Below are positions 20,193 to 59,109 of a DNA stretch of 64,000 bases, piece by piece. The position numbers and the translations under genes are program-made. Within the stretch, counting starts at the first letter, position 1, and every line of letters begins with the position of its first letter. The notes under the pieces are model-generated. The model was not told the origin of the DNA and made no database searches. It saw nothing but the letters and a program-made list of their open reading frames with translations. Origin of the DNA: Sulfurimonas sp. (lineage in GTDB: Bacteria; Campylobacterota; Campylobacteria; Campylobacterales; Sulfurimonadaceae); the NCBI GenBank assembly GCA_028687935.1, contig JAQTZE010000005.1:62001-126000 (forward strand), given 5' to 3'.

Positions 20193-20291
20193 AAAGATTA
20201 GTTTTTGTGATACTTTAGAGAAATCTATCCGCCTTTTTTTTCATTCACAATTACTATACAACAACTCTATAAATTTGTGAAACGCGATAGA

Positions 20292-37071: not shown

Positions 37072-37163
37072 TAAATTCTCCAATAATTTACATAATTGGC
37101 AGTATTTTACCTGAAATGACGTTTATAAACTATTAAATAACTTAACTCTCATTTCATATTTTT

Positions 37164-37195
37164 GTAACTAAATTGACACTCAATAGAAATCTTCA
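37164..37195 (+). promoter_or_regulatory. weak Pho-box-like site before the beta-helix lipoprotein
   Basis: GTAAC (37164-37168), six bases, GACAC (37175-37179), ten bases, then TCTTCA at the expected -10 place. The first half-site is perfect; the second half and the -10 are poor, so this is the weakest of the seven sites. Confidence 0.4.
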
Positions 37196-37250
37196 AGTAA
37201 TAAAGCTTCTCTAAACTTCGAAAATATTTTATACACCCTTGGAGATATAT

Positions 37251-40200
37251 ATGACAAAGAAAAAAATACTCTTAAGTGCGCTTGCGGCTGCGATGACTGC
37301 CTCTCTTACTGGCTGTGGTGCTGGTACTGACAACTCATCCACAAACACTTACTACTACACCGAAACAACTGACAGTTATAACACCACCAATACAGGTACT
37401 GATGCAAATACAACAACTAATACTCCAGTTGAAACAAACGCACCGACACTCATTGTTGGAAATATCACAGAAAACACAACATGGACAAAAGCAAACAGCC
37501 CTTATCAGCTAACTAGCAGTCCTACTGTCGTAAAAAATGGTTCTATCTTGACTATAGAGCCAGGTGTTACAATTTATGGAGAGGAAGACTCTTATCTCGT
37601 CGTCGCAAAAGGCGCGAAAATTATTGCAGATGGTACACAAGAAGCACCGATTATTTTCACATCCTTAGCCACTCTTGCTACAACTGCAGCTCCAGTCAGA
37701 ATGGCTCCTGCGGCAGCTGGTCAATGGGGAGGCTTGGTTATTCTAGGTAAAGCACTCGTCAATGAATCCAATCTCTTTTTTGAAGTAGATGAATCCAATC
37801 CAGATTTTGCCTATGGCGGAACAAACGATACAGATAACTCAGGTATTCTTAGAAATGTAAAAATCCTCAACTCAGGATTTGCAGTTGCTCCAGATAAAGA
37901 GGTGAATGCTCTTTCACTCTGTGGTGTTGGATCTGGAACTATTGTGGATGATATCACGGTGATAAACTCTGGTGATGACGGTATAGAAATATGGGGTGGT
38001 TCTGTAAATCTTAATAATATATCTATCACAGGAGCTCAGGATGACGGTTTCGATGTTGACAACGGCTACCATGGAACAGTCAAAAATCTCACAGTAACAC
38101 AAACTGAACCAGGTTCTGCACTTATAGAGATGACTAATACTGGTGATGCCACACTTCAAAGAACAGAGTGGACTCTCGATGGTTTCAGCTTGCAAGCTTC
38201 TTCAAATCAGCTTGGCGAAGGCGGTATCTACTTTAAAGATGCTGATGTTGCAATACATGCTAGTAACGGTACTATCAACATGACAGACTCAAACATCTCT
38301 GCGGCGGGTCTGCACAACAAAGTGGGTGTATATTCCGGTTCTAGCTTAGATAACATTCTTGTTTTAGGAAGTGCTACGGTTGATAACAACATGACTTCAG
38401 GTGATGCCGCTGGTGTTACAGTTCTCAATACTATCGTTCAAGACGGTGCTGGAAATACTTTTGCAACACCAACAATTCTTCCTGCAGGCTCTAGCCTCAC
38501 TGGTGACATAACACAAGATACACTTTTAACAAAAGCAAACAGCCCATATAAACTTGCGGGCAACAAAGTGAAGATAAAAAACAACGCGACACTCATTATC
38601 GAACCAGGTGTAACAATCTACGGGGAGTCATCTGCTTACCTGATTGTTACAAAAGGTTCAAAGATAAACGCAAGCGGTACTGCGACAGATCCAATTATCT
38701 TCACTTCAGAAGCTGCGTTTAATGGTGCACCAGGTGTTGCAGGTCAATGGGGTGGTGTTACACTTCTAGGTTCTGCCATTACCAACGAACCTGATACTAT
38801 CAGATATGAAGTAGATGAAGCAGATGCTGATTTCGCATACAGCGGAACAAACGATGCAGATAATTCAGGTGTTTTAAACTATGTACAAATCCTCAACTCA
38901 GGCTTTGCTGTGGCACCTGATAAAGAGGTAAACGGTCTTTCACTTTGTGGTGTAGGTTCATCTACAATTGTTGACAATATCACTATCTTAAACTCTGGTG
39001 ATGATGGTATCGAGATCTGGGGTGGTTCTGTAAATCTTAACAACATCTCAATCACTGGTGCTGAAGATGACGGGCTAGACCTTGATAGCGGATACCACGG
39101 AACTGTTAAAAACTTAGCTGTAACACAAACGCAAGCTGGCTTTGCTCTTATCGAAATGACAAATCACGGTGATGCTACGAAACAAAGAACAAACTGGACT
39201 TTGGATGGATTTACCCTTACTGCTTCTGCGAATCAGCTTGGTGAAGGTGGTATCTACTTCAAAGATAGTGATGTAACAGCTACTTTCAAAAACGGTACGG
39301 TAGATATGACTAACTCTCCTGTTGCAAACAAAGGTGCAGGTCTTACTAACTCTGCTGGTGTTGTTTATACATCTCCGATTTTACAAAATGTTACAGTTAA
39401 AAGTAATCAATTTGTAAATGTTGTAGCGAATAAAAAAGACGCTACAATTGCAGATGCAGGTACAGCAACACTCAATGCAGCATTTGCGGCAGATACAACA
39501 AACTTACATGAAGCATACTATGCACCGCTTGCAGCGGGAGAGAATTTAAGTGGAGAGATTACTCAAAATACTGTGCTTCTTAAAGCGAACAGTCCTTATA
39601 AACTTGCAGGGAATAAAGTAAAAATCAAAAACAATTCGATTCTTAAAATCGAACCAGGTGTAACAATCTACGGGGAGTCATCTGCTTACCTGATTGTTAC
39701 AAAAGGTTCAAAGATAAACGCAAGCGGTACTGCGACAGATCCAATTATCTTCACTTCAGAAGCTGCGTTTAATGGTGCACCAGGTGTTGCAGGTCAATGG
39801 GGTGGTGTTACACTTCTAGGTTCTGCCATTACCAACGAACCTGATACTATCAGATATGAAGTAGATGAAGCAGATGCTGATTTCGCATACAGCGGAACAA
39901 ACGATGCAGATAATTCAGGTGTTTTAAACTATGTACAAATCCTCAACTCAGGCTTTGCTGTGGCACCTGATAAAGAGGTAAACGGTCTTTCACTTTGTGG
40001 TGTAGGTTCATCTACAATTGTTGACAATATCACTATCTTAAACTCTGGTGATGATGGTATCGAGATCTGGGGTGGTTCTGTAAATCTTAACAACATCTCA
40101 ATCACTGGTGCTGAAGATGACGGGCTAGACCTTGATAGCGGATACCACGGAACTGTTAAAAACTTAGCTGTAACACAAACGCAAGCTGGCTTTGCTCTTA

Positions 40201-40574
40201 TCGAAATGACAAATCACGGTGATGCTACGAAACAAAGAACAAACTGGACTTTGGATGGATTTACCCTTACTGCTTCTGCGAATCAGCTTGGTGAAGGTGG
40301 TATCTACTTCAAAGATAGTGATGTAACAGCTACTTTCAAAAACGGTACGGTAGATATGACTAACTCTCCTGTTGCAAACAAAGGTGCAGGTCTTACCAAC
40401 TCTGCTGGTGTTGTTTATAACTCTGTGATACTTGAGAATACAAAAGTAAAAGGAAGCGCAACAGTAGATGTTGCAGCAAACAAAAAAGACGGTACTACAG
40501 CAGATGCTGGCACGGCAACACTTAACACTGCGTTTAGTGCTCATGTAGATAACGCATACACATCTCACCCATAA
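37251..40574 (+). CDS. large beta-helix lipoprotein with internal repeats
   Basis: A 1107-aa lipoprotein. The ATG at 37251 follows GGAGATATAT; a frame with a TTG four codons earlier runs through that site. The signal ends in ASLTGCGAG. Three repeats of about 350 residues follow, each starting with TKANSPY / LKANSPYKLAGNKVKIKNN and containing EPGVTIYGE, GQWGGVTLLG, NSGFAVAPDKEVN and DDGIEIWGGSVNLNNISITGA, a pattern of a right-handed parallel beta helix. Repeats 2 and 3 are encoded by DNA identical over 772 bp apart from one base. A weak Pho-box-like site precedes it, and the TonB operon follows after a hairpin. It may be a surface partner of the TonB receptor; that is inference. Confidence 0.75.
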   Translation: MTKKKILLSALAAAMTASLTGCGAGTDNSSTNTYYYTETTDSYNTTNTGTDANTTTNTPVETNAPTLIVGNITENTTWTKANSPYQLTSSPTVVKNGSILTIEPGVTIYGEEDSYLVVAKGAKIIADGTQEAPIIFTSLATLATTAAPVRMAPAAAGQWGGLVILGKALVNESNLFFEVDESNPDFAYGGTNDTDNSGILRNVKILNSGFAVAPDKEVNALSLCGVGSGTIVDDITVINSGDDGIEIWGGSVNLNNISITGAQDDGFDVDNGYHGTVKNLTVTQTEPGSALIEMTNTGDATLQRTEWTLDGFSLQASSNQLGEGGIYFKDADVAIHASNGTINMTDSNISAAGLHNKVGVYSGSSLDNILVLGSATVDNNMTSGDAAGVTVLNTIVQDGAGNTFATPTILPAGSSLTGDITQDTLLTKANSPYKLAGNKVKIKNNATLIIEPGVTIYGESSAYLIVTKGSKINASGTATDPIIFTSEAAFNGAPGVAGQWGGVTLLGSAITNEPDTIRYEVDEADADFAYSGTNDADNSGVLNYVQILNSGFAVAPDKEVNGLSLCGVGSSTIVDNITILNSGDDGIEIWGGSVNLNNISITGAEDDGLDLDSGYHGTVKNLAVTQTQAGFALIEMTNHGDATKQRTNWTLDGFTLTASANQLGEGGIYFKDSDVTATFKNGTVDMTNSPVANKGAGLTNSAGVVYTSPILQNVTVKSNQFVNVVANKKDATIADAGTATLNAAFAADTTNLHEAYYAPLAAGENLSGEITQNTVLLKANSPYKLAGNKVKIKNNSILKIEPGVTIYGESSAYLIVTKGSKINASGTATDPIIFTSEAAFNGAPGVAGQWGGVTLLGSAITNEPDTIRYEVDEADADFAYSGTNDADNSGVLNYVQILNSGFAVAPDKEVNGLSLCGVGSSTIVDNITILNSGDDGIEIWGGSVNLNNISITGAEDDGLDLDSGYHGTVKNLAVTQTQAGFALIEMTNHGDATKQRTNWTLDGFTLTASANQLGEGGIYFKDSDVTATFKNGTVDMTNSPVANKGAGLTNSAGVVYNSVILENTKVKGSATVDVAANKKDGTTADAGTATLNTAFSAHVDNAYTSHP
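38598..39369 (+). repeat. 772-bp direct repeat, copy 1
   Basis: First copy of a direct repeat inside the beta-helix lipoprotein gene. It matches 39648-40419 at an offset of 1050 bp (350 codons); reading both copies by eye I found one difference (T at 39347, C at 40397). Confidence 0.9.
39648..40419 (+). repeat. 772-bp direct repeat, copy 2
   Basis: Second copy of the repeat. The offset is a multiple of three, so recombination between the copies would delete or add exactly 350 codons without a frameshift. Confidence 0.9.
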
Positions 40575-40587
40575 TAAAACTCTCACT

Positions 40588-40616
40588 CTTACAGATGGTT
40601 CATTGCCCTCTGTAAG
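40588..40616 (+). terminator. hairpin after the beta-helix lipoprotein gene
   Basis: Perfect eight-base arms CTTACAGA and TCTGTAAG with a 13-base loop, 13 bp past the stop codon. No T-run follows, so it may be an mRNA-end stabiliser rather than a strong terminator. Confidence 0.4.
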
Positions 40617-40684
40617 ATATCTACAACTCTAACCTACAGTTCCTCACTCACTCAAAAAAATCTCCCTCTTTTTGTCACCAAAAG

Positions 40685-40727
40685 GTAATCAAAAAGTAAT
40701 TCTAAAGTAGCTAAAGAAACATACTAT
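40685..40727 (+). promoter_or_regulatory. Pho-box-like promoter of the TonB operon
   Basis: Three half-sites with starts 11 bp apart: GTAAT (40685), GTAAT (40696) and GTAGC (40707). Ten bases after the last lies TACTAT (40722-40727) in the -10 position. The ATG of the first gene is 29 bp further. Confidence 0.6.
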
Positions 40728-40755
40728 TGCGTATCTTAAACTCTATGGGGAATCC

Positions 40756-41514
40756 ATGTCTAAAATAACAGTTAGCATCACCTTAAGCCTACTGCTGAGT
40801 GCAACAGCAGCTCTGGCAAGTTCAGACAATATGGCTGAATCGTTAATGAAACTTCGCTCTCAGGTAGAGCAGCTTGATAGCTCAATCACGGATGAAAAAG
40901 AGAGTCACAAAGCTACGATGAAATCACTTTTGAGACAAAAAGATGATTTGGAATCTGTCGTAGCCCGTGAGGATCTCAAAATAAAACAGCTCGAAGCAGA
41001 GCTCGCAAAAGTCAAACAGGAAATAGCAGACGGAAGTAAAAATTCCGATGGTCTTAAACCTTTGCTACTGAGTGCACTTGATCTTTTAGAGACAAATGTT
41101 AAAGCTTCTCTACCGTTTAAAACGCAAGAGAGGTTGGCAGATATCGCGCAGATAAGAGAGCAAATTCAAAATGATCTCATAACAGCTCAAAAAGGTGTAG
41201 CACTCACATGGAATGCTTACAGTGATGCGATACGCATGACAAAAGAAAACGGTCTTTTCAAACAAACTATAAAAATAGGCAATGAAGAGAAACTGGCAGA
41301 AATAGCACGTATCGGAACAGTGATGATGTACTTCAAAACACCGGACAACAATGTAGGCTATGCAAGTAAAGACTCAAAAGGCTGGTACTACAAAGAGGCC
41401 CTCTCTACGGAAGAAAAAGAGCAGATTCTTTATCTTTTTGATGCTTTCAAAAAACAGATCCGTACAGGATATTTTAACCTGCCAAATGCCATCGTAATGG
41501 GAGAAAACAAATAA
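40756..41514 (+). CDS. DUF3450 periplasmic coiled-coil protein
   Basis: A 252-aa exported protein. The signal peptide ends in AALASSDN; about residues 25-95 form a coiled coil (MKLRSQVEQLDSS, LLRQKDDLESVVAREDL); the rest has the DUF3450 pattern with the end part KDSKGWYYKEALSTEEK and FKKQIRTGYFNLPN. DUF3450 genes are typically first in TonB2-type clusters with TtpC-like proteins in Vibrio and Shewanella. Its last base overlaps the start of the next gene. It probably sits between TonB complex and cell wall; the exact role is unknown. Confidence 0.85.
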   Translation: MSKITVSITLSLLLSATAALASSDNMAESLMKLRSQVEQLDSSITDEKESHKATMKSLLRQKDDLESVVAREDLKIKQLEAELAKVKQEIADGSKNSDGLKPLLLSALDLLETNVKASLPFKTQERLADIAQIREQIQNDLITAQKGVALTWNAYSDAIRMTKENGLFKQTIKIGNEEKLAEIARIGTVMMYFKTPDNNVGYASKDSKGWYYKEALSTEEKEQILYLFDAFKKQIRTGYFNLPNAIVMGENK

Positions 41515-42827
41515 TGAAACAGCTACTATCACTCCTCTTAATCCTCTGCGTGAGCCTTTTTGGAGCAACAGACACCGACCTTGAACGCGCGTATGCAAAA
41601 GAGTTTGCTTACCTTAAAGCACAAAAAGAGATGCTACAAACGCGTCTTGGATCGATTCAAGGAGAACAGAACAAAAAGCTCTCTCAAGCAAAAACAGACT
41701 TAGAAAGACTCCAAGCAACTGTTCTTCAAAAAAACACTTTAAGTGAAAAACTTGAGAGTGATCTCTACCGTACGCAACAAAATGCTTCAAACCTTACAGA
41801 TGATGTTGCCATCATCGACTCTGTCATGATGCAGGCAAACAGTTCACTTGATAGTTACGGTATTACCATAGAAGAAGATAAAAACAACTATCAAGCTGCA
41901 TTGGAAAATGTATTCACAGAGAGTGACAAACTTATCAAAGAGCTAAGCTCGACACGCGTAACAAAGGGTACTTTTTACAATGAAGACGGAAGTAAAGAAA
42001 ACGGTGAGCTTGTAAAAGTCGGGAACATCGCTACTTTTGGTATCTCTACAGATACAGCTGCTGCGCTTGTTCCTGCAGGGGATGGCAATATGAAAGTATG
42101 GAATGCACCTGAAGCGGCATCCACTGCAAAAGCACTCAAAAACAGAAACTACTCAGAGCAACTCAACATCTTTATCTATGAAAACCCTACTTTAGAGATT
42201 GAAAACGTAAAAGAAAAAACACTCATAGAGATTATCGATTCTGCCGGTATCATCGGATGGATTATCGTGATTCTTGGTCTTGTCGGTCTTGGTCTTGCAC
42301 TCCTTCGTACACTCTTTTTATCAAGTGCAAGTTCTTCTACATCAGACCTTGCAAAAGCGACACTCAGCAAACTCCTCGCAAACGGTGTCGATGGCGCATT
42401 AGAGTTTTTACAGAACAAAAAAGGTTCGACTGCCCGTGTTTTAAAAGCGACTATCCGTAACCTCGATAGAGACCGTGAACACATCGAAGATATCGTTGCC
42501 GAGTCTATTTTACATGAGAGCGGAAGACTTGATAAATTTGGTTCTATCCTAATGGTTATCGCGGCCGTTGCGCCTTTACTCGGTCTTCTTGGAACGGTTA
42601 CAGGGATGATAGCAACTTTTGACATCATCACAGAGTTTGGAACGGGTGATCCGAAACTTCTCTCAGGCGGTATCTCGATAGCACTTGTGACAACAGAGCT
42701 TGGTCTTATCGTAGCTATTCCTATCCTCATGATAGGAAATATACTTGGCGGTTGGGCTGAGAGAGTCAAAGATAGTATGGAACACTCTGCTCTTCACCTT
42801 ATCAACGAGTACAACAAGCAGAAGTAA
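41514..42827 (+). CDS. long MotA/TolQ/ExbB proton-channel protein (TtpC-like)
   Basis: A 437-aa protein. Signal peptide (LLSLLLILCVSLFGATDT), a periplasmic coiled coil (about 20-105), a further periplasmic part, then a transmembrane helix (IIGWIIVILGLVGLGLALLR, about 243-262) and an ExbB/TolQ core (VAPLLGLLGTVTGMIATFDII and GGISIALVTTELGLIVAIP). This is the architecture of TtpC, the extra channel protein of the Vibrio TonB2 system. It would harvest proton motive force with ExbB, ExbD and TonB of the same operon. Confidence 0.85.
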   Translation: MKQLLSLLLILCVSLFGATDTDLERAYAKEFAYLKAQKEMLQTRLGSIQGEQNKKLSQAKTDLERLQATVLQKNTLSEKLESDLYRTQQNASNLTDDVAIIDSVMMQANSSLDSYGITIEEDKNNYQAALENVFTESDKLIKELSSTRVTKGTFYNEDGSKENGELVKVGNIATFGISTDTAAALVPAGDGNMKVWNAPEAASTAKALKNRNYSEQLNIFIYENPTLEIENVKEKTLIEIIDSAGIIGWIIVILGLVGLGLALLRTLFLSSASSSTSDLAKATLSKLLANGVDGALEFLQNKKGSTARVLKATIRNLDRDREHIEDIVAESILHESGRLDKFGSILMVIAAVAPLLGLLGTVTGMIATFDIITEFGTGDPKLLSGGISIALVTTELGLIVAIPILMIGNILGGWAERVKDSMEHSALHLINEYNKQK

Positions 42828-42830
42828 AAG

Positions 42831-43424
42831 ATGGAAGCATTCACACATTTTATGGAGTATATGCAAAGCGGCGGTTATGTCATGTGGCCGCTTGCTCTGT
42901 TGGTGCTTGTGCTTTGGTACGCTCTTGGTTTTCGCTTTCATACACTCAAACGCGGTTCAAACGCCAATGTGAGAAACTTGGTACGCAAGTTTGATGACGG
43001 TAAGAGAACAGTACCAAAAGGGATGATAGACGGTGCGATTGTTGAAGCACTTGCTATTGTAAAGATTCACGGCCGTGTCTCATCAAGCAGAAACTATCTT
43101 GATGATGCTTTCAATAGTCGCAAACGCGAAATAACACAGTATGAGACTATTATCAGAACTATCGTAGCTGCAGCACCTCTTATAGGTCTCCTTGGCACAG
43201 TTATAGGGATGATAGAGACTTTTGACTCGCTTGCAAGTGCCTCTTTGTTTTCACAAACAGGTGGTATCGCAGGCGGTATATCGCAGGCACTTTTTACAAC
43301 ACAGTTTGGGCTCGTTGTCGCCGTTCCAGGTCTTATCATCGGAAAGATACTCGATAGAAAAGCCAGTACGATGGAACTTGAGCTTGAGCAGATCAAAGAT
43401 ATTTTATGTTCAGAGGGAGTTTAG
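42831..43424 (+). CDS. exbB: ExbB-type proton channel subunit
   Basis: A 197-aa MotA/TolQ/ExbB family protein with three transmembrane helices. Marks are the N-terminal YVMWPLALLVLVLWYALGF, and AAAPLIGLLGTVIGMIETFDSL plus ISQALFTTQFGLVVAVPGLI, which line the proton channel. It starts 3 bp behind the TtpC-like gene and ends where exbD begins. Confidence 0.9.
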   Translation: MEAFTHFMEYMQSGGYVMWPLALLVLVLWYALGFRFHTLKRGSNANVRNLVRKFDDGKRTVPKGMIDGAIVEALAIVKIHGRVSSSRNYLDDAFNSRKREITQYETIIRTIVAAAPLIGLLGTVIGMIETFDSLASASLFSQTGGIAGGISQALFTTQFGLVVAVPGLIIGKILDRKASTMELELEQIKDILCSEGV

Positions 43425-43829
43425 ATGCGTTTTAGACCGAAAAAATCGCAAGAGAGTAGCGTAGATATGTCACCGCTTATCGACATGGTTTTTATCCTGT
43501 TGATATTTTTCATGGTGAGTTCTACATTTGTTAAAGATATGAAGCTTGATCTTAACCGCCCAGGGGCTTCATCTGCCCAAAAGGCTTCAAGTAAGGTTAT
43601 CCGTGTCTACATAGACAATGTGGGTGAGACTTATGTTGATGGTCAAGCGGTCAAGACTTGGGCTATTCAGGGAAAACTCAGAGATATGCTTCGCGCTTCC
43701 ACGGAGAAATCCGTACTTGTAGTAGCAGACCAGAGTATCGCTGTCGAGAAGCTTATTGATGTAGTTGACCAGTGCCGCCTCAGCGGTGCTAAAGATGTGG
43801 CAGTTGCAACTGAAAAAGAAGTAGGTTGA
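43425..43829 (+). CDS. exbD: ExbD-type proton channel subunit
   Basis: A 134-aa biopolymer transport protein with one transmembrane helix (SPLIDMVFILLIFFMVSSTF). Aspartate 20 in that helix is the conserved proton-carrying residue. The periplasmic part has the ExbD fold (KSVLVVADQSIAVEKLIDVVDQC). It abuts exbB. Confidence 0.93.
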   Translation: MRFRPKKSQESSVDMSPLIDMVFILLIFFMVSSTFVKDMKLDLNRPGASSAQKASSKVIRVYIDNVGETYVDGQAVKTWAIQGKLRDMLRASTEKSVLVVADQSIAVEKLIDVVDQCRLSGAKDVAVATEKEVG

Positions 43830-43831
43830 TT

Positions 43832-44461
43832 GTGAAAAAGCTGCAAAACCATCTCAAAGCATTCGTATGGATGCTCTTTGGTATCTTTTTTGTCTTCAAC
43901 ATCGTTGTTCTTATGAACAGCGAAAGCGCTCCGGATAATCAAGGAAAGAAACAAGAGAGTACAAGTTTTGAGATTGCAAAGGTAAGTAAACCAAAACCTG
44001 AGCCAAAGCCCAAACCAAAGCCAAAACCTGAGCCAAGCAAAGCAAAAAAAAGCGATATCGCCCCAAGTCTCTCTTCAACGCTTAGCGGTATAGACACAGG
44101 GCTTGATGCCTTCATGAGCGGGGATATGAAGATGGAAGAGTCTCTTCTTGGAGATGTGGGTAAAGATGTCGTCATGAGTGAAGATTCTGTAGATGAAGCG
44201 CCAAAACCAACACATAGAAGTGCAATGGAGTATCCAAGCAAAGCAAGAAAATCAGGCATCACAGGGTATGTGCTCATGAACATTCTTGTAAACCAAGATG
44301 GAAGCGTTGCAAAGGTGAAGGTCTTAGAGTCTGAACCTGCCGGTCTTTTTGATGATGTAGCCATTGCAGGTGTCAAAGAGTGGAAATTTCGACCTGCTCA
44401 GTACAAAGGTCAGGCTGTAAAAGTCTGGGCAAAACAAAAAATCAGTTTTAATCTTCAATAA
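43832..44461 (+). CDS. tonB: TonB energy-transducing protein
   Basis: A 209-aa TonB. I take GTG at 43832 as start because AGTAGG lies 6 bases before it; a TTG two codons earlier is too close to that site. One N-terminal membrane helix (FVWMLFGIFFVFNIVVLM) is followed by a Lys-Pro-rich spacer (residues about 50-70) that spans the periplasm, and the TonB C-terminal domain (YPSKARKSGITGYVLMNILV, VKEWKFRPAQYKGQAV). It would carry energy to the TonB-dependent receptor of the same operon. Confidence 0.93.
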   Translation: MKKLQNHLKAFVWMLFGIFFVFNIVVLMNSESAPDNQGKKQESTSFEIAKVSKPKPEPKPKPKPKPEPSKAKKSDIAPSLSSTLSGIDTGLDAFMSGDMKMEESLLGDVGKDVVMSEDSVDEAPKPTHRSAMEYPSKARKSGITGYVLMNILVNQDGSVAKVKVLESEPAGLFDDVAIAGVKEWKFRPAQYKGQAVKVWAKQKISFNLQ

Positions 44462-44470
44462 GGAAACAGG

Positions 44471-45619
44471 ATGAAAAATATATTTATACTCGTACTTCTT
44501 TTATCTTTGAATCTTTATGCAGGCGAAAAGAAAAACAGTGCCGATGAGATAGACCATATCACTTTGGCTACTATCCTTCTCAAAGACGGGCACACAGACC
44601 GTGCCAGCGAAGAGCTTAAACAAGTGAACCTGCAAGATAAAAAACTTGATTTTGTCAAATACTACACTTTAAAAGGTTTGATACTGACAAACCAAAGTGC
44701 GTACGAAGAGGCAAATAAAGCATTTGCTGCGTCTCTAAACGCAGGTCAAAGCGACACATCCATTTATCTTTACATGGCACAAAACAGCTTCAAGCTTGAA
44801 CGCTATGAAGAGACGCTTGTAGCTATCCAAAACGCAGGAGCAGTTGCAGAGCAAAAAGCCTCCATCTACGCACTCAAAGCTGAAGCGAACTATAGGCTTG
44901 GGAAGAAAAATGAAGCCCTTGCAATTATTGAGATTGCACTTACAAAGTTTCCTGAAGCCTATGAGTTTTACAAACAGCGTTTTAACTACTTTGTCACAGA
45001 AAAGCTTTACCAAAGCGCACTCAAAGATGCAGAGATTTATCTCAAACACGCTACGCCAAATGAAAAAACATCCCTTGCGTTTATAGCAACACTCAGAAAA
45101 AGTGGTGAGACAGACAAAGCGATCATGCTTGCAGAAAAAGCGAATCTTCAGTTTGAAGAGAGTGCAACGGTTACTGTTTTACTTGCTCACCTCTATCTGG
45201 ACAAAGGGATGATTCAAGCTGCGGCGAATCTCTTTGATCAAGCCTCGATAGAAGATGAAAAATATACGCAAGAAGCGGCAGAGATGATGCGAAGAGCCAA
45301 AGAATTTATCACGGCTCTTTATAAAAACTCTCAGCTTCTTGAGACAAAAGAGAAGCTCAAACAGCGCATCGCCATCTATCTTGAGTATGAAGATTACGAA
45401 AGAGTCGTTGCCAGCCAGAAGGCACTCTACAGATCAGCTCTTATAGAAGATGAAAACATCCGCTACGCTTTGGCGTATGCCTATTACAAAGTCGGTGACT
45501 TTGATTCAAGTGAGAAGGAACTCAAACAATTGAGTAAAGCTGATCTATTTCAAAAAGCAACGGAGATAAGAAAGAACATGCAAAAATGTATCGATAACTA
45601 TTGGGAGTGTGAACTATGA
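44471..45619 (+). CDS. periplasmic TPR protein of the TonB system
   Basis: A 382-aa exported protein (signal MKNIFILVLLLSLNLYAGEKK) made mainly of tetratricopeptide repeats, for example LKDGHTDRASEELKQVNLQ, AYEEANKAFAASLNAGQ, YRLGKKNEALAIIEIAL and LYLDKGMIQAAANLFDQA. A TPR protein is a known component of the Vibrio TonB2-type clusters (TtpC-linked). It overlaps the receptor gene by 4 bp. Likely a scaffold between TonB complex and receptor; not proven. Confidence 0.85.
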   Translation: MKNIFILVLLLSLNLYAGEKKNSADEIDHITLATILLKDGHTDRASEELKQVNLQDKKLDFVKYYTLKGLILTNQSAYEEANKAFAASLNAGQSDTSIYLYMAQNSFKLERYEETLVAIQNAGAVAEQKASIYALKAEANYRLGKKNEALAIIEIALTKFPEAYEFYKQRFNYFVTEKLYQSALKDAEIYLKHATPNEKTSLAFIATLRKSGETDKAIMLAEKANLQFEESATVTVLLAHLYLDKGMIQAAANLFDQASIEDEKYTQEAAEMMRRAKEFITALYKNSQLLETKEKLKQRIAIYLEYEDYERVVASQKALYRSALIEDENIRYALAYAYYKVGDFDSSEKELKQLSKADLFQKATEIRKNMQKCIDNYWECEL

Positions 45620-48600
45620 AAATAGTACTATTATTTATCGCACTAAGCATCTCCCTTCTTGCGTCTGCTACAGGCGATCTCTCCTTGTTTGTTCTCAAAG
45701 AGGGAAAACCACTCAAAAATCAGACACTTATCATCTATAAACAAGATGCTGCTGCTGACACAAACGCAGCGTTTGTGAAACATGCAGAGTTTATCACAGA
45801 TAGTGATGGAGCTCTTTTTACTGTTTTACCGATAGGTTCTTATCAGGTACAGGTTCTTGCAAAAGATGGTACAGAAGTTCAAGCTTTTGTCAAAAAGCAT
45901 TTTGTCATAGAAGAGAATAAAGAGTCTCAGATAATCATCTCTTTGAAAAAAAACAATGAACTCTCATTTGATGATAGAGAGTCTCCGGCTTCTGTAGCTG
46001 GAGCTGCTGCAGCAACACTTGTCGCAGCTAAAGAAAAAGGAGATGTACAAATCTCTTTAGTCTCTGCAGAGACACAAAAACCTATTGCCGGTGCGAGAGT
46101 TTTTGTCAAAGGACTCAGCATCGATGCACAAACTGATGCAAAAGGAAATGTTCTTCTGAATATTCCCGTAGGAGAGCAGACACTCTCCATCATCCATAGT
46201 GAATTCAGCTCACAGAGTGTCAAAGTAAATGTAGATGCAAAAGTAAGCAGTACAAAGTTTGTGGAGCTTAGCCCTGCTTCGATGGAGCTCGATGAGTTTA
46301 TTGTTTTAGCACCTCAAGTAGAGGGAAGTGTCGCATCACTTATCGCAGAGAAGAAAAACGCAAGTGCTATTGCAGATATTCTCGGCTCTGAGGAGATGAG
46401 TAAAAAAGGTGACTCAAACGCAGCTGCAGCACTTAAGCGTGTTTCTGGTGTAACTTTGGTCGATGGAAAAAATGTCTATGTAAGAGGACTTGGTGAGCGT
46501 TATGCCAATGTAGAGCTTAACTCCATGCCACTTCCTTCACCTGATCCCTACAAAAGGGTTGTACCTTTGGACATTTTTCCCTCAAGTATCATAGGAAGTC
46601 TCAAGGTACAAAAGACATACTCCGCAGACCTTCCTGGGAACTTCGGAGGTGGTTATATCGACCTTAGAACCAAAGAAGATGTATCAGAGGACTTCGTCAA
46701 ACTCACTCTTGCTACAAAAGCACATGACTCTGCACTTGATGGTACAGAGGGGAACTACTATGCTGGCGGTTCTATGGACTACTTCGGTATAGATGATGGG
46801 AGCAGAAGACTACCATCCAATGTGCTCAATGCAGGACGCGTTGAAGAGGGAGAAAAACAGCCTGCTTTTACTCCCTATGGGACAAACTTCACCAAGCTTG
46901 AACTCTGGGGTATGACAAAAGATATGGCACGACGCTCAGTCGATACACACAAAGAGGGTGTGCCGCTTGGAAGCAAGATTGCGATAGAACTTGGTAAAAA
47001 GATAGAAATAAATGCAGATAACACTCTGAGTATCTTGGCAAGCTACTCTTATGACCAAGATCATAAACATATCACTGAAGAGTTTTACGGCTACAGTATG
47101 GACGGACAAGGTGTTATCTTGGACGAAGCTGATACCTACGGTACAAATGAGAGAACCTACTCAAACTATAAACAAAACGCAATGCTTAATCTCGGTTATA
47201 ACTATGCAGATGTATTTAAACTCAAATATACCTCGCTGTTTGTCCTTGATACACTGGAAAAAACGCGTGTGACAGATGGGGTTATCGGTTCAAATCAGGA
47301 TCTACAAAGACTCTATTCACTTGACTGGGAAGAGAAAACACTCTTTGCAAACCAACTCACAGGGCTACTCAAGCACAAGCTTATCTCTGATGCACAGTTT
47401 AACTTTGGTATGCAGTGGAGTATAGCTGAGCTCAACCAACCAGGCAATATAAAATATGACTATATCGACTACACAGGAACAGGAAATCATTATCAGCTCA
47501 AAACGCAGTCAGCGCAAAACCTTATCCAGCATGAGCTTTTAACAAACGATGATGTCAAAAGTTTTTATCTCAATGAAGTCGCTGATATCTCTATCTTCAG
47601 TGACGAGGATAAAGTGGAACTAGGCGTAAGCTACACTACAAAAACGCGTGAGTCCCGCTCAAATAAGTTTTACCTCAAAGCAGAAAACGCAAGTAATATA
47701 TCTTATGAAGATTCTCAACAGAGTGTTGATTTTATCATGGATAAATATGTCACGCAGGAAGTATCAAACTATGAGACTTCCACATTTTTAGTCAAGCCGA
47801 TTTTTAGTCCCTCTGACTATTATGATGCAGACTTTGTTGAAAAAGGCTTCTATGTCAAAACATTGATCAATCCTATAGATTCCTTTGAGCTTAGCATAGG
47901 TGCTAGAAAAGCAGTTTTAAATCAAACCTTACATGAGTATGGAATAGATCCTAGTACAAATCTTGTAGCCATCAATGACAACGAAATGAACATAGATAAA
48001 TGGCTACCAAATATAGATATGCGCTTTAAGTTTACCGATAATGACCAGCTGCGTTTTGGTTACTCTATCACTTATATCTATCCAGACTTTAGGGAGTTTT
48101 CAAGTTCAGGATATTTCCACCCTGATGAGTCAGCAACTGTTATAGGAAATCCTAATCTCACACATACGGATCTTACAAACTATGACCTCAGATTTGAGCA
48201 CTATTTCTCTGCTACAGAGAGTTTTTCAACGGCTGTTTTTTACAAAACACTCACAAATCCTATAGAAGATGTTTCCCGTCCATCAACTTCTTTGCCTATT
48301 TACTCGTATGAAAACACGGATTCGGCAACACTGCTGGGTCTAGAGATTGAGGCATCCAAAGGACTTGATTTTGTAGATGAAAGTCTAGAGAACTACTACA
48401 CATCTGCAAACTTTACTTACACAAAATCAGATGTCAGTCTCTCACAAACGCAAGAAGAGCAGTTTACAACAAACCATCGTGAGCTTCAAGGACTCTCTCC
48501 TATCGTTATAAACGCCAATATAGGCTATGACAACACAGATGGAAGGATACTCAATCTTGCATATAACTATATGTCAAGAAGAATCCGCAAAGTAGGTCTG

Positions 48601-48813
48601 AAAAATGGTGTTCAAGAGTATCCTGACCAGTATGAGTATCCACCGCATTTAGTGGACTTTACTTGGCAGGAAAATCTTTTAGAGGGCATGGATGTGAAGT
48701 TTAAAGCCGGAAATCTTCTAAATGGCGAAGTGACTTGGATGGAGGGTGACAACATTACCAAAAGATACAAACCTGGCAGATCTTACGAGCTTTCACTCAG
48801 CTACAAATACTAA
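45616..48813 (+). CDS. TonB-dependent outer membrane receptor
   Basis: A 1065-aa receptor. After the signal peptide (LFIALSISLLASATGD) come two carboxypeptidase-regulatory-like beta domains (about 20-115 and 125-215, the second with KPIAGARVFVKGLSIDAQTDAKGNVLL). A TonB-box candidate is MELDEFIVLAP (about 229-239). The plug has AAAALKRVSGVTLVDGKNVYVRGLGERYANVELNSMPLP, and the barrel fills the rest to the final aromatic ELSLSYKY. Two N-terminal beta domains and the large size recall Oar/SusC-like receptors rather than siderophore receptors. It closes the TonB operon. The Pho-box-like promoter and the neighbours suggest a phosphorus-containing substrate; substrate is inferred. Confidence 0.88.
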   Translation: MKIVLLFIALSISLLASATGDLSLFVLKEGKPLKNQTLIIYKQDAAADTNAAFVKHAEFITDSDGALFTVLPIGSYQVQVLAKDGTEVQAFVKKHFVIEENKESQIIISLKKNNELSFDDRESPASVAGAAAATLVAAKEKGDVQISLVSAETQKPIAGARVFVKGLSIDAQTDAKGNVLLNIPVGEQTLSIIHSEFSSQSVKVNVDAKVSSTKFVELSPASMELDEFIVLAPQVEGSVASLIAEKKNASAIADILGSEEMSKKGDSNAAAALKRVSGVTLVDGKNVYVRGLGERYANVELNSMPLPSPDPYKRVVPLDIFPSSIIGSLKVQKTYSADLPGNFGGGYIDLRTKEDVSEDFVKLTLATKAHDSALDGTEGNYYAGGSMDYFGIDDGSRRLPSNVLNAGRVEEGEKQPAFTPYGTNFTKLELWGMTKDMARRSVDTHKEGVPLGSKIAIELGKKIEINADNTLSILASYSYDQDHKHITEEFYGYSMDGQGVILDEADTYGTNERTYSNYKQNAMLNLGYNYADVFKLKYTSLFVLDTLEKTRVTDGVIGSNQDLQRLYSLDWEEKTLFANQLTGLLKHKLISDAQFNFGMQWSIAELNQPGNIKYDYIDYTGTGNHYQLKTQSAQNLIQHELLTNDDVKSFYLNEVADISIFSDEDKVELGVSYTTKTRESRSNKFYLKAENASNISYEDSQQSVDFIMDKYVTQEVSNYETSTFLVKPIFSPSDYYDADFVEKGFYVKTLINPIDSFELSIGARKAVLNQTLHEYGIDPSTNLVAINDNEMNIDKWLPNIDMRFKFTDNDQLRFGYSITYIYPDFREFSSSGYFHPDESATVIGNPNLTHTDLTNYDLRFEHYFSATESFSTAVFYKTLTNPIEDVSRPSTSLPIYSYENTDSATLLGLEIEASKGLDFVDESLENYYTSANFTYTKSDVSLSQTQEEQFTTNHRELQGLSPIVINANIGYDNTDGRILNLAYNYMSRRIRKVGLKNGVQEYPDQYEYPPHLVDFTWQENLLEGMDVKFKAGNLLNGEVTWMEGDNITKRYKPGRSYELSLSYKY

Positions 48814-48864
48814 ATCTACAAAGCTACAAATGCGTTACAAAACCAAGGCTTTTCGGCCTCGGCT

Positions 48865-48896
48865 GTAACCACAATGAAACACAAACACCATACAAT
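48865..48896 (+). promoter_or_regulatory. Pho-box-like promoter of the PhoB-like regulator
   Basis: GTAAC (48865-48869), six bases, GAAAC (48876-48880), ten bases, TACAAT (48891-48896). The start codon is 30 bp further. It fits autoregulation of the response regulator. Confidence 0.55.
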
Positions 48897-48926
48897 ACTC
48901 ACAAATAAATCTCGGAGAGATACTCT

Positions 48927-49607
48927 ATGAAAGAGCATATACTTGTCGTAGAAGATAACAGCGACATCCTCGAACTCCTCGAATATAACCTCATCGCAGC
49001 AGGTTATGACACACTTGGATTTCTCAATACAAAAAATGTAAGACAGGTCTTAGCTGAAGAAAAAATAGATCTCATCATCATGGATAGATCCCTGCCTGAT
49101 ATAGAAGGAAGTCTTTTTATAGAGATGCTGCGAAGCAAAAATATCAATGTACCCGTTATCTTCCTCTCTGCCAAAAACAGTCTGAGTGATATAAAAGAGG
49201 GGTTTTTAAAAGGTGCGGATGACTATATCACCAAGCCTTTTGATATCGAGGAGCTGCTTCTTCGTATAAAAGCAGTGCTCAAACGCTACAACAACCACAC
49301 AAAAGATGTACTTGATATATTAGAATACAAAGATATGCGCTTAGATTTAAACCTACATGCGGTGAGCATAGACGAAATTAGTGTAGGTTTGACGAAGCTT
49401 GAGACCTCTCTTTTGGAAGTGATGATACACAATAGAGGCAAGGTTCTCGACAGAGACTTTTTACTCAAAAAGATTTGGAAGGATCCAGAAAATATTCATG
49501 AAAAAACAGTCAATGTAGCGATAAAAAGACTCAAAGAGAAGATAGACCCAAGCAGAGGTAAAGAGTATATACGTACTATCCGTGGTGTCGGGTATCTTCT
49601 TCCATAA
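48927..49607 (+). CDS. PhoB/OmpR-family response regulator
   Basis: A 226-aa two-component regulator. The receiver has acidic residues in VVEDNSD, the phosphorylation Asp in LIIMDRSLPD (Asp 53) and the Lys in DDYITKPFDIEELL. The winged-helix DNA-binding domain follows (about 130-226, TVNVAIKRLKEKIDPSRGKEYIRTIRGVGYLLP). No histidine kinase is adjacent. Placement between a TonB operon and pst genes, and its own Pho-box-like promoter, suggest it is the phosphate regulator, comparable to PhosR of Campylobacter. The name is inference. It converges with the GGDEF-EAL gene (11-bp gap). Confidence 0.85.
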   Translation: MKEHILVVEDNSDILELLEYNLIAAGYDTLGFLNTKNVRQVLAEEKIDLIIMDRSLPDIEGSLFIEMLRSKNINVPVIFLSAKNSLSDIKEGFLKGADDYITKPFDIEELLLRIKAVLKRYNNHTKDVLDILEYKDMRLDLNLHAVSIDEISVGLTKLETSLLEVMIHNRGKVLDRDFLLKKIWKDPENIHEKTVNVAIKRLKEKIDPSRGKEYIRTIRGVGYLLP

Positions 49608-49618
49608 ACACTACAGAC

Positions 49619-51613
49619 TTAGCTCACAGAAGAGAGATTCATTGCCTTGTAAAATATCTCAAAGTCACTTACGCTCAGCGGCTTTGAGTAGTAGTATCCT
49701 TGGTACTGATCACACCCTATATTTTTGAGATACTCTAGTTGCGTTTGCTTTTCGACGCCTTCTGCTATAATCTTCAAATGCAAGGTCTGTCCCATTTTTA
49801 CGATTGTTTCAATAAATATAGCACCATCTTCTGAGTCATAATCATCCATAAAACTCCTATCTATTTTGAGATAGTCAATAGGGAATCTTTTCAAATAAGA
49901 AAGAGAAGAGTAGCCTGTTCCAAAGTCATCTAAAGATATAGATATACCTTTATCGTGCAATAAGTTCAGAGAGTTTAGCGATTCATTATGCTGATCTACC
50001 AATATATATTCAGTTATTTCGATATCTATTTGAGAGGGATCAACATTTTTCTCTTCAAGTTTTGCTATAAAATTCATAGCAAAATTCGTTTCTTGAAGCT
50101 GCTTGATTGAGATATTTATTGAGATATTGATATCAATATTTTTTGCTTTCCACTCTAGACATTGAGACAAGGCTTCTTCTACTATCCACTCTCCGAGTTC
50201 TACAATAAAGCCATTATCTTCGGCAAGAGGAATAAAAACATCAGGAGAGATAATACCTTTTTTAGGACTTATCCATCGCAAAAGCGCTTCAACGCCGACA
50301 ATTGTACCACTGAGAATATCGACCTTTGGCTGATAGTAAAGCTGATACTCACCATTATGCAAAGCTTGTCGCATATTTTTATTGAGGGTGATAGTATCCT
50401 GCACGCTTTTATTCAGTGCTTCGGTGAAGAAATGGTATTGTGCGCGTCCGAGTTTTTTTGCTTCATACATGGCTATATCAGCGTGTTTCATCAAGGAGAC
50501 ATAATCCGTAGCATCTTTAGGGTAAAAAGCGACTCCAACGCTGGAGTTTATATGAATAGGATGCGTTTGTACAACCCAAGGACGCGCTAAATGTGCCTGA
50601 ATTCTCTCGATAATATTTGACAATTCAAAATAGGATTTATACTCTGGAATAATCAAAACGAACTCATCTCCGCCAACACGTGCTATAAAATCATTTGGTC
50701 GCAGTGTTTTTTTGATAATCGAAGCAATGTTTTTGAGGAGTTCATCTCCTACATTGTGACCAAGTGAGTCATTGACACTTTTAAAATGGTCTATATCCAA
50801 AAAAAGAAATGCAAACTCATCTTCATTTCTTGCCGAAACTGCTATCAGTCTTTCTACAAATTCATACAAAGAGTTGCGATTTGCCAAACCACTCAAAGAA
50901 TCCGTTCTTGCCATGAGATACAACTCCTCTTTTTCGCTTTCAAGTCTTGTAAAAGTATCCACCATAGAGTAGCGGATAACTTCAAGTTCTTTGAGCTTAA
51001 ATGCAGAGGGCACTTTAGAGTGATAATAGGCAAATTGACGAAGTTTTTCAAGTGGAATTGAGACAAAGAAATGAATAAACCATAGAACCAGTAAAAAGAT
51101 AAAAATAGGAATAAAGCCAAAATAGAGTGCAAATTCTATTTGATTATTTATGAAGTGTGCATCGATCTCTTCATGCTCCAGTACATAGACAAGGGTAAGC
51201 TTTACAGCGTTCTTCCCTTCATAAAATCTAATCTCCTGTTCAAGTGATTTTGATTTCAAAAGTTGCTTAGCTGGTATCTTTTCTTCATCGTCTCCAAGAC
51301 TCAGGGCATCCATGCCGCAATGCGGATCTGTATTGAGAAGGATATCCTTATCATCAAGGACTAATATAGCCTTGATAAAATGGTTGCTAGCGGCAATCCT
51401 ATCCAGTGCCGCCCTCGATGTGATTACGCTCTCTTTATTCTTCGTATTTTTTGCTACTGTATACGCTGTCTCAGCGATATTGTTCCGTAGTGTTTTCATG
51501 ATGACCGCAGCCATTTCCTCTTCTTGTTTGAAAAAATAATAGGTAAAAAGAGCATAAAAAATCACCGAAACAACAACAAAAATCAATAGTGTAAATCTTT
51601 GTATGCTCAACAT
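49619..51613 (-). CDS. membrane GGDEF-EAL protein
   Basis: A 664-aa protein with two transmembrane helices (about 7-26 and 160-182) around a periplasmic sensor. The GGDEF domain is intact (RVGGDEFVLIIPEY) and so is the EAL domain: VEALLRW, ISINISIKQLQ, DIEITEYIL, DDFGTGYSSLSYLK, LKIDRSF, IAEGVEK, QGYYYSKP. It could therefore both make and degrade cyclic di-GMP. Its ATG follows the stop of the substrate-binding lipoprotein gene with no gap, and pgaBCD lie upstream in the same operon. Cyclic di-GMP activates PgaC/PgaD in E. coli, so a local control is likely. Confidence 0.92.
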   Translation of the reverse strand: MLSIQRFTLLIFVVVSVIFYALFTYYFFKQEEEMAAVIMKTLRNNIAETAYTVAKNTKNKESVITSRAALDRIAASNHFIKAILVLDDKDILLNTDPHCGMDALSLGDDEEKIPAKQLLKSKSLEQEIRFYEGKNAVKLTLVYVLEHEEIDAHFINNQIEFALYFGFIPIFIFLLVLWFIHFFVSIPLEKLRQFAYYHSKVPSAFKLKELEVIRYSMVDTFTRLESEKEELYLMARTDSLSGLANRNSLYEFVERLIAVSARNEDEFAFLFLDIDHFKSVNDSLGHNVGDELLKNIASIIKKTLRPNDFIARVGGDEFVLIIPEYKSYFELSNIIERIQAHLARPWVVQTHPIHINSSVGVAFYPKDATDYVSLMKHADIAMYEAKKLGRAQYHFFTEALNKSVQDTITLNKNMRQALHNGEYQLYYQPKVDILSGTIVGVEALLRWISPKKGIISPDVFIPLAEDNGFIVELGEWIVEEALSQCLEWKAKNIDINISINISIKQLQETNFAMNFIAKLEEKNVDPSQIDIEITEYILVDQHNESLNSLNLLHDKGISISLDDFGTGYSSLSYLKRFPIDYLKIDRSFMDDYDSEDGAIFIETIVKMGQTLHLKIIAEGVEKQTQLEYLKNIGCDQYQGYYYSKPLSVSDFEIFYKAMNLSSVS

Positions 51614-52495
51614 TTAAAGGATACTTCTTAGAGGGAAATCTGTCTGTTTTAGACGTTCAAGTAAGTCAGCGGAAATATTTTCATTGATCCAAATTATCTC
51701 ATCTAAAGAGGCTAAAAACTCTTCATAACTCGTCTCAGGAAGGTATCTCTTTATCGTTTCATAAAACTCTCTCGGATTTTTTTGTAGTTGCACAACAGCT
51801 CTATCCACTACTTTTTTAAGCTCCACAAACTGTTTTTTTTGCTCATTGAGACATTTTATGCTTGTGAACATAGCATCCACGACTAAGAGGTTAACTCCCT
51901 CTTTCGTTGAGGCAACTTCCTGAAATCCATTTTTCATTAAGTGGCTATTATAAGGAGAATATGTGATGATAAGAGTCGGATTTTTCAGATCTTCTTTTTG
52001 AAGCGTCGAGATATAGGACTGATCTTCATTCATATAGTTGAGATGTTTTGCAGAGAGTTTATGTAATTGCACAAAGTCTGAAAGAAGTAAACTATTGATT
52101 GAGTCCATCTCGAGATAGACATCAATAGTTGCGTTTGTATCTTTGAGTTGTGCTAAAGAAAGATTACTCATCACGACATCACCGCCATTTGAACGGTCAA
52201 ACATCATCACAGGAACAAGAGATGCGTCTTTTTGAGAAAGTAGTGAGTACTCATACTGCGTTCCCACATAAGCGTCCGAGTTGCCAGACTTATAGAGATA
52301 CATATTTTCACTCAAAGAGACAACATTGAGGAGCTTGATATTGAGCAGTTCAAGCCAGGCTTTCTCTTTTGCATAAAACAAAGGTGTGTAGCCTACCCAC
52401 GTTGTCACAGATATAGTGAGCTTTTTTTCATACTCAGAGCTACAAGATGTCAATAAAATCATAGAAAGAAAAATAAGTAGCATTTTTTTAAACAT
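51614..52495 (-). CDS. SsuA/THI5-like substrate-binding lipoprotein
   Basis: A 293-aa lipoprotein (signal FLSMILLTSCSSE). The ATG at 52495 is preferred to an in-frame ATG eight codons earlier because it opens the signal peptide. The soluble part follows the NMT1/THI5-like periplasmic binding fold (ISVTTWVGYTPLFYAKEKAWLELLNIKLLNVVS, DAYVGTQYEY). No ABC permease or ATPase accompanies it. It abuts the GGDEF-EAL gene, so it probably senses a ligand for that enzyme instead of serving transport. The ligand is unknown. Confidence 0.78.
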   Translation of the reverse strand: MFKKMLLIFLSMILLTSCSSEYEKKLTISVTTWVGYTPLFYAKEKAWLELLNIKLLNVVSLSENMYLYKSGNSDAYVGTQYEYSLLSQKDASLVPVMMFDRSNGGDVVMSNLSLAQLKDTNATIDVYLEMDSINSLLLSDFVQLHKLSAKHLNYMNEDQSYISTLQKEDLKNPTLIITYSPYNSHLMKNGFQEVASTKEGVNLLVVDAMFTSIKCLNEQKKQFVELKKVVDRAVVQLQKNPREFYETIKRYLPETSYEEFLASLDEIIWINENISADLLERLKQTDFPLRSIL

Positions 52496-52574
52496 ATAAA
52501 AACCTTCTAAGATAAACATTTTCTACATTTTATCCGCTCTAGGATTAGGATTATATTAAAGTTGATGACTTATT

Positions 52575-53015
52575 TTACAATACAATTTTATTCTCCAGAT
52601 AGGTGATACGCCCTTGCTCATCATGATGAACCGTAACAAATTGACTCGCAACACACTCTTCTACTACTGCATCTTGAAGTTGGAAATAACGTGCATATTC
52701 ACTAGGCGTATAGAGCAAATGTGTAGTTGCAGCCATGTGTCTATTGAGCCTTGAGAGTACAAACAAAACCAGAGGTGTCGCAATCAACATAAATATTGCG
52801 TTTTCAAATGGCACTGCGTTTATCTCATCAAAGATAGCCGCGGATATCACTTTAAATGATGCATCAAGCGTAACTATCTTATAAAAAATAATAAACACCG
52901 GCTTCCATAGATAGAGCCAACCCAACCAAAGCGCTATGGTCACAATATCCCAAAGTACTCTTTTAACAAGAGGTAGCTCATGGCGTTTGTTGATGATGAG
53001 GGTATCTTTGCTCAT
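52575..53015 (-). CDS. pgaD: PgaD-like protein of poly-N-acetylglucosamine synthesis
   Basis: A 146-aa inner-membrane protein with two transmembrane helices (TIALWLGWLYLWKPVFIIFYKIV and ENAIFMLIATPLVLFVLSRL). Position and form match PgaD, the partner of the glycosyltransferase PgaC. Its start overlaps the pgaC stop by 4 bp. PgaD sequences diverge strongly, so the call rests largely on context. Confidence 0.75.
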   Translation of the reverse strand: MSKDTLIINKRHELPLVKRVLWDIVTIALWLGWLYLWKPVFIIFYKIVTLDASFKVISAAIFDEINAVPFENAIFMLIATPLVLFVLSRLNRHMAATTHLLYTPSEYARYFQLQDAVVEECVASQFVTVHHDEQGRITYLENKIVL

Positions 53016-56319: not shown

Positions 56320-56468
56320 TGAACCTTTGGCTTCAACACTATGGATAGCACCACAATCGAAGTACTTTTTATGAGAATATGAATGCCGAATAATACAACA
56401 TATCTTGCAAATAATGTTGCATAAAACGCAAAGAAAATAAGAAGAAATATGAACTTTTAAAAAAGGAG

Positions 56469-56496
56469 AAGCAAAGCCAAATGAGGGGCTTTGCTT
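56469..56496 (-). terminator. intrinsic terminator of the porin gene (second hairpin)
   Basis: Perfect ten-base arms AAGCAAAGCC and GGCTTTGCTT around eight bases; on the minus strand it is followed by CTCCTTTTTT. Together with the hairpin at 56531-56547 it ends the porin transcript. Confidence 0.7.
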
Positions 56497-56530
56497 GAAG
56501 GAGAAAAATGAAATGAAAAAAATGAAAATT

Positions 56531-56547
56531 ATGCCCACTTGGGGCAT
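56531..56547 (-). terminator. intrinsic terminator of the porin gene (first hairpin)
   Basis: ATGCCC and GGGCAT arms around five bases, 10 bp past the stop codon, followed on the minus strand by a T-rich run with seven consecutive Ts. Confidence 0.6.
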
Positions 56548-57902: not shown

Positions 57903-57934
57903 AGTATATGACAGCTTGGTTACGTATTGATTAC
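57903..57934 (-). promoter_or_regulatory. Pho-box-like promoter of the porin gene
   Basis: On the minus strand: GTAAT (57934-57930), six bases, GTAAC (57923-57919), ten bases, TATACT (57908-57903). A third half-site GTCAT follows 11 bp after the second. Start codon 43 bp further. Confidence 0.7.
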
Positions 57935-57951
57935 AATTTAGCATCAAAACG

Positions 57952-59059: not shown

Positions 59060-59091
59060 AGTATAAATCTTAAATGTTACAAAAGGATTAC
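59060..59091 (-). promoter_or_regulatory. Pho-box-like promoter of pstS
   Basis: On the minus strand: GTAAT (59091-59087), six bases, GTAAC (59080-59076), ten bases, TATACT (59065-59060). The start codon of pstS is 32 bp further. The -10 and both half-sites are the same as before the porin. Confidence 0.72.
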
Positions 59092-59109
59092 GAAAAAATC
59101 AGAGAAAAA

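Follow-up and report, generated by a model that had tools for sequence, protein, structure and literature searches.

Several described systems link TonB-dependent transporters (TBDTs) to phosphate. In Caulobacter, ElpS (cc0170) is a surface-exposed outer-membrane lipoprotein that is produced under phosphate starvation and whose gene adjoins those encoding the TBDT Cc0171 and a type II secretion system (T2SS) (PMC2996285). This T2SS governs the release of ElpS, and overproduced ElpS raises extracellular phosphatase activity; cc0171 was reported to be constitutive, and its deletion did not abolish ElpS production in poor medium (PMC2996285). In Flavobacterium johnsoniae, the clusters PUSIII and PUSIV, both strongly induced at low phosphate (Pi) and the latter including phoBR, encode TBDTs and the lipoproteins FI/FII, which are reported to be ElpS-related and polygalacturonase-like (PMC8115612); other PUS clusters use SusD-like partners. 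The receptors and ElpS-like lipoproteins of both genera are strongly phosphate-linked. Caulobacter also has PhoB-controlled TBDTs, members of the Pho regulon that are presumed to import phosphate donors (PMC11208175). PhoB-controlled TBDTs and ElpS-TBDT pairs are therefore already known (PMC11208175, PMC8115612, PMC2996285), and the suggestion in the earlier note that phosphate-linked TonB uptake would be unknown went too far. Regarding energization, the TonB2 operon of Vibrio vulnificus has the order ttpB2-ttpC2-exbB2-exbD2-tonB2-ttpD2 (PMC6957404).

The DNA analysed here (the window, 64,000 nucleotides) comes from a 2.58 Mb genome of a sulfur-oxidising, Sulfurimonas-like member of the Campylobacterota, and the presence in it of a phosphate-linked TonB gene island is confirmed. 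The island shares with the Caulobacter ElpS-Cc0171 pair a surface lipoprotein gene, an adjoining TBDT gene and the link to phosphate starvation, and with the F. johnsoniae PUS systems a TBDT with a carboxypeptidase-regulatory domain next to a lipoprotein. Unlike the Caulobacter pair, it has its own TtpBC-ExbBD-TonB-TtpD energizer, a pst/phoB setting and three beta-helix domains in the lipoprotein, and no T2SS adjoins it. A dedicated TonB/ExbBD operon was not described for the F. johnsoniae clusters, which belong to the Bacteroidota (PMC8115612), nor a dedicated energizer, in the part of the source considered, for the PhoB-controlled TBDTs of Caulobacter (PMC11208175). The energizer of the window has the same six proteins in the identical order as Vibrio TonB2 (PMC6957404), but the latter is iron-induced and serves siderophores, whereas the former belongs to a separate, phosphate-linked clade. 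A literature search that took in few subscription journals found no paper that describes a phosphate-linked TonB system of Sulfurimonas, nor one on a private phosphate-linked TonB energizer with Pst and PhoB in Campylobacterota; within that literature, the private energizer and its Pst/PhoB integration in this phylum appear to be new.

Gene content of the module

The genes of the module, from the lipoprotein to the response regulator (37,251-49,607), all lie on the plus strand and are all intact according to ORF reading and Pfam:

37251-40574, plus strand: ElpS-like lipoprotein with three right-handed beta-helix domains (Pfam Beta_helix, repeats, AlphaFold model of domain 2)
40756-41514, plus strand: TtpB-like DUF3450 protein (PF11932, E=1e-31)
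41514-42827, plus strand: TtpC-like protein with a MotA/TolQ/ExbB channel domain (PF01618 and tree)
42831-43424, plus strand: ExbB (PF01618)
43425-43829, plus strand: ExbD (PF02472 and tree)
43826-44461, plus strand: TonB (TonB_C, E=4e-20)
44471-45619, plus strand: TtpD-like TPR protein (Pfam TPR; ttpD2-like place in the Vibrio TonB2 operon order)
45616-48813, plus strand: TonB-dependent receptor with prealbumin-like and carboxypeptidase-regulatory N-terminal domains, plug and barrel
48927-49607, plus strand: PhoB-like response regulator (OmpR family), a PhoB paralogue with no adjacent kinase

The single plus-strand run listed in the earlier note was thus recovered in full, with every gene in place and supported by Pfam. 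Its order is beta-helix lipoprotein, then TtpB(DUF3450)-TtpC-ExbB-ExbD-TonB-TtpD(TPR)-TBDT, then the regulator, and the gene set and order DUF3450-TtpC-ExbB-ExbD-TonB-TPR are those of a TonB2/TtpC-type energizer.

Regarding the lipoprotein, the gene stood but its start was revised, as the ATG at 37251, which gives the lipobox LTGC, is most likely used and not the TTG at 37239 called earlier. The protein has three beta-helix domains in tandem; domains 2 and 3 (38436-40571) share 93% identity, which points to a recent duplication, and the lipoproteins of relatives have one to three domains. Domain 2 was predicted by AlphaFold to be a right-handed beta-helix (mean pLDDT 86), and a fold search returned many polysaccharide-active beta-helix structures of the PDB at Z 20-23, none of them preferred. 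The protein has the lipoprotein signal (lipobox LTGC) and the TBDT next door that are typical of ElpS; alphaproteobacterial lipoproteins in elpS-like synteny match it at E 8e-25 to 3e-30, with 35-39% identity per domain, and it is on these homologues that the ElpS-type label rests.

The receptor (1065 residues) has an N-terminal extension of about 220 residues comprising the prealbumin-like and carboxypeptidase-regulatory domains, and its plug and barrel scored above the Pfam cut-off. An STN signalling domain was not detected in the receptor by the Pfam scan, nor was any member of the SusD family, the partner in PusCD (SusCD-like) systems, among the operon proteins. C-terminal to the regulatory domain, an invariant VLAP motif (V230-P233, in the context ..EEFVVLAP..) looks like a TonB box. 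A sequence profile search of the PDB matched only the N-terminal region of RagA, and BLAST gave no match between the receptor and two further receptors that the genome encodes. The structure prediction proposed in the earlier note (mean pLDDT 71) yielded a confident barrel and a weakly modelled plug, and fold searches with the receptor and the lipoprotein gave only generic TBDT and beta-helix matches, without a clue to the substrate. In one relative (L007, G004 C40:20392-23475) the receptor gene carries an in-frame TAA, possibly a recent pseudogene or a sequencing error.

Pho boxes, regulator and neighbouring phosphate genes

PhoB-type regulators act at 11-bp-spaced Pho boxes. A Pho-box matrix was trained on sequences of relatives, with the window and the two relatives nearest to it excluded, and of some 128,000 window positions the seven best lie before porinP, pstC, ttpB, an OlsF-like gene, pstS, the lipoprotein and the regulator. 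These sites, which include direct repeats at 11-bp spacing as in promoters of the Pho regulon, and the phosphate-related genes outside the module are:

18239-19951, minus strand: Acyltransf_2 and Acetyltransf_5 fusion gene (OlsF-like)
20175-20196, minus strand: Pho box before the OlsF-like fusion gene (window rank 4)
37160-37205, plus strand: Pho-box array before the lipoprotein, TTGTAAC/TTGACAC/TAGAAAT/AAGTAAT at 11-bp steps (rank 6; shuffle p=0.01)
40670-40713, plus strand: Pho-box array before ttpB, four 11-bp units (rank 3)
48861-48882, plus strand: Pho box before the response regulator (rank 7; shuffle p=0.013)
56558-57859, minus strand: phosphate-porin-like outer-membrane porin (porinP), a conserved neighbour
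57906-57938, minus strand: Pho-box array before the porin (best position of the window)
58023-59027, minus strand: PstS phosphate-binding protein (PBP_like_2), a conserved neighbour
59074-59095, minus strand: Pho box before pstS (rank 5)
61219-63030, minus strand: Na+/phosphate cotransporter (PF02690)
63321-63342, plus strand: Pho box before pstC, a perfect 14/14 match (rank 2)
63390-64000, plus strand: start of pstC, with pstA, pstB and phoU next, just past the end of the window

The sites previously suspected before three of the units were found at 37160-37181 (lipoprotein), 40670-40691 (ttpB) and 48861-48882 (regulator), and those before porinP, pstS, pstC and the lipid-synthesis gene extend the set. 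For comparison between genomes, pairs of a half-site fixed beforehand (YTGTMAY) were counted at 11-bp spacing in orthologous upstream regions and in shuffles, and were present in 11 of 11 regions for porinP, 14 of 24 for ttpB, 8 of 13 for pstS, 9 of 17 for the lipoprotein and 12 of 29 for the regulator, against 0.25-1.6 in shuffles; the 11-bp spacing was prominent in every gene set, and other spacings were far weaker. Pho boxes also precede the lipoprotein gene in Alteromonas and Pseudoalteromonas, and in Alteromonas ttpB as well. The case for the motif rests on this comparison, since the exact consensus occurs only 10 times in the whole genome against 4 for the reversed control; the exact pattern picked out few additional genes genome-wide, none of them a nuclease or phytase. 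Fur boxes were not enriched before ttpB, where the best match equalled that of shuffled sequence, and were slightly above shuffles before the lipoprotein. The Campylobacter PhosR motif GTTTCNAAAANNGTTTC was discarded as its reversed-pattern control was commoner than the motif itself. Phosphate control of the module is strongly supported by these sequence comparisons.

The best match of the regulator among 98 NCBIfam families was PhoB (TIGR02154), at 169.7 bits and thus below the cut-off of 296.2. A second PhoB-like gene, on contig C34, is 56% identical to it, has a Pho box and adjoins a histidine kinase gene. In four loci of relatives (L035, L037, L042 and L043) two or three PhoB-type regulators stand in tandem 3' of the receptor, followed in L042 by a PhoR-like kinase.

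Regarding the other phosphate genes, the name phosphate porin is inferred, because the porin at 56558-57859 had no Pfam match. Two PPK2 genes adjoin pstS on the minus strand, and PPK2 was found beside the module only in the window and a close relative (L014). The one phosphatase found in the genome is a PhoX-like lipoprotein encoded away from the module (L083, G000 contig C28:76502-77812), with a Pho-box-like site upstream (TTGTAAC/GGGTAAT); PhoA and PhoD were not found in the genome search. Between regulator and porin, the minus-strand block 49619-56547 encodes an EAL/GGDEF protein, a solute-binding-like lipoprotein and a pgaBCD-like polysaccharide operon; it looks inserted in the window, or lost from L014 and L023, since regulator and porin adjoin each other in these two close relatives.

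Distribution of the module and ancestry of its energizer

Of 60 near relatives, 11 have the receptor, and another 20 named loci with it belong to Sulfurimonas, Sulfuricurvum and Sulfurovum. A PhoB-type regulator, a Pst gene or the phosphate porin lies in the examined flank of the module in about 25 loci of Campylobacterota, some of them possibly the same species counted twice; L042 is the clearest, reading pstCAB-phoU-lipoprotein-energizer-receptor-three regulators-phoR-porin, and six loci (L016, L019, L029, L062, L072 and L073) have no phosphate gene in the examined flank. Across about 40 loci, the genes that turn up repeatedly next to the module are Pst, Pit, the phosphate porin, PhoB/PhoR and the OlsF-like gene. 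The co-occurrence check proposed in the earlier note was carried out on 180 genomes, sampled evenly from the order; the receptor was found in 10, the lipoprotein in 10 and both in 8 (Fisher P 8.5e-11, a value that ignores shared ancestry); the genomes with only one of the two are fragmented assemblies, and the pairing is near-obligate. One contig (G089 C25; L065 and L066) carries the lipoprotein and energizer genes twice in opposite orientation, either a large inverted duplication or an assembly artefact.

Receptor-lipoprotein pairs occur in other phyla, with E values of 2e-31 to 6e-94 for the receptor and 8e-25 to 9e-40 for the lipoprotein domain. An Alteromonas macleodii plasmid has the order phoB-phoR-pstS-2OG-Fe oxygenase-lipoprotein-receptor-energizer and Pseudoalteromonas plasmids have energizer-lipoprotein-receptor; the pair is also present in Aureibacter and Parabacteroides (Bacteroidota). 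In Sphingomonas and Indioceanicola (Alphaproteobacteria) the order is lipoprotein-receptor-T2SS, the same as that reported around Caulobacter elpS.

Regarding the energizer, nine of the ten genomes with the receptor, plus one with the lipoprotein only, have a weak-scoring subclass of DUF3450, and 17 genomes, mostly others, have a strong-scoring subclass, which adjoins siderophore-type receptors in the loci read; the weak-scoring (phosphate) subclass tracks receptor and lipoprotein. In trees of TtpC and ExbD the phosphate energizers of Campylobacterota form one clade (100/100 support) apart from energizers beside siderophore-type receptors. The energizer accompanying the pair in Gammaproteobacteria falls among other TonB2-type energizers in the free TtpC tree, hinting at repeated recruitment of energizers by the pair, and an AU test of the gammaproteobacterial and Campylobacterota phosphate energizers as one clade (p 0.062, not rejected) allows a single origin.

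Proposed transport route and its alternatives

The TonB uptake systems described so far mostly serve iron, vitamin B12 and sugars, and ExbB, ExbD and TonB energise the gating of receptors. We propose, with a probability of roughly three in four, that the island encodes a phosphate-starvation-induced TonB import system in which an ElpS-type lipoprotein and its TBDT work with a dedicated energizer, and which would feed Pst. The gene content, the Pho boxes, the near-obligate pairing and the linkage to Pst and PhoB genes are direct observations behind this proposal; induction by low phosphate, the direction of transport and the role of the lipoprotein are its interpretive part. When phosphate is scarce, a PhoB-type regulator would bind the 11-bp-spaced Pho boxes and switch on three units, namely the surface lipoprotein, the receptor with its own energizer, and the PhoB-like regulator. 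On the outer membrane, the triple beta-helix lipoprotein may capture a phosphorus compound or present it to the receptor, a role made plausible by the near-obligate pairing and the surface location of ElpS. Proton flow through ExbB-ExbD-TtpC would drive the movement of TonB, with TtpB and TtpD assisting, the receptor plug would open to admit the compound, and its phosphorus would end as phosphate for PstS and PstCAB. The dedicated TonB machine under phosphate control postulated earlier is well supported, by Pho boxes in many genomes and the linked PhoB-type regulators, pstSCAB and phosphate porin as well as by the unenriched Fur boxes and the separate TtpC and ExbD clades.

The accompanying idea of a substrate too large for the porin found no support: around the roughly 40 loci, neither phytases nor nucleases nor polymer hydrolases turn up repeatedly. 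A polymer fits less well as substrate than phosphate, a metal-phosphate complex or a small organic phosphate, given that the genes found repeatedly beside the module encode phosphate transporters and not polymer hydrolases and that the genome search found one PhoX-like phosphatase and neither PhoA nor PhoD. Tentatively, and at less than even odds, the cargo of the receptor could be inorganic phosphate (or a metal-phosphate complex), captured at the surface by the lipoprotein and accepted in the periplasm by PstS; if phosphate itself is carried, a small anion usually assumed to pass porins by diffusion would be taken up actively, at the expense of energy. More generally, such an import machine beside ordinary phosphate transporter genes suggests that phosphorus compounds are pumped over the outer membrane in some bacteria; the locus joins receptor, lipoprotein, private energizer and Pst/PhoB genes in one conserved package across phyla, and offers a compact test system for the substrate question that includes chemolithoautotrophs.

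Import of a phosphorus polymer (nucleic acid, polyphosphate, phytate or a teichoic-like compound), bound first by the lipoprotein, would suit a fold shared with polysaccharide-active beta-helix proteins, three tandem domains whose conserved Asp pairs could hold a long ligand, and the PPK2 genes next to pstS. We consider it unlikely, as polymer hydrolases and nucleases do not recur in the module flanks, PPK2 adjoins the module in the window and L014 only, and a shared fold proves no function. An iron (or ferric-phosphate) TonB2-type system expressed incidentally under phosphate stress is very improbable: the gene order is that of the iron-linked Vibrio operon and the remaining DUF3450-type energizers of this taxonomic order lie beside siderophore-type receptors, but the absence of Fur-box enrichment before ttpB, the fully supported separate clade, neighbours that are phosphate genes and not ferric transporters, and the lack of a BLAST match to the two tested receptors of the genome all speak against it.

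The near-obligate pairing would also fit if the TBDT served the lipoprotein, placing or releasing the ElpS-type protein at the surface or sensing its state, without importing a nutrient. The T2SS beside the pair in Alphaproteobacteria points the same way, as do the control of ElpS release by the Caulobacter T2SS and the extracellular phosphatase activity raised by ElpS overproduction (PMC2996285). However, the Campylobacterota loci read have no T2SS next to the pair, a dedicated energizer implies repeated energised transport and the receptor has no STN domain, which leaves this explanation rather improbable compared with phosphate-regulated import.

Regarding the wider regulon, the fusion of Acyltransf_2 and Acetyltransf_5 at 18239-19951 shows an OlsF-like domain layout (ornithine lipid synthase), and its Pho box suggests that synthesis of phosphate-free lipid may belong to the same regulon. 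Sulfurovum and other relatives also have homologues of this gene close to the module (L021, L024, L030, L033, L071 and L075).
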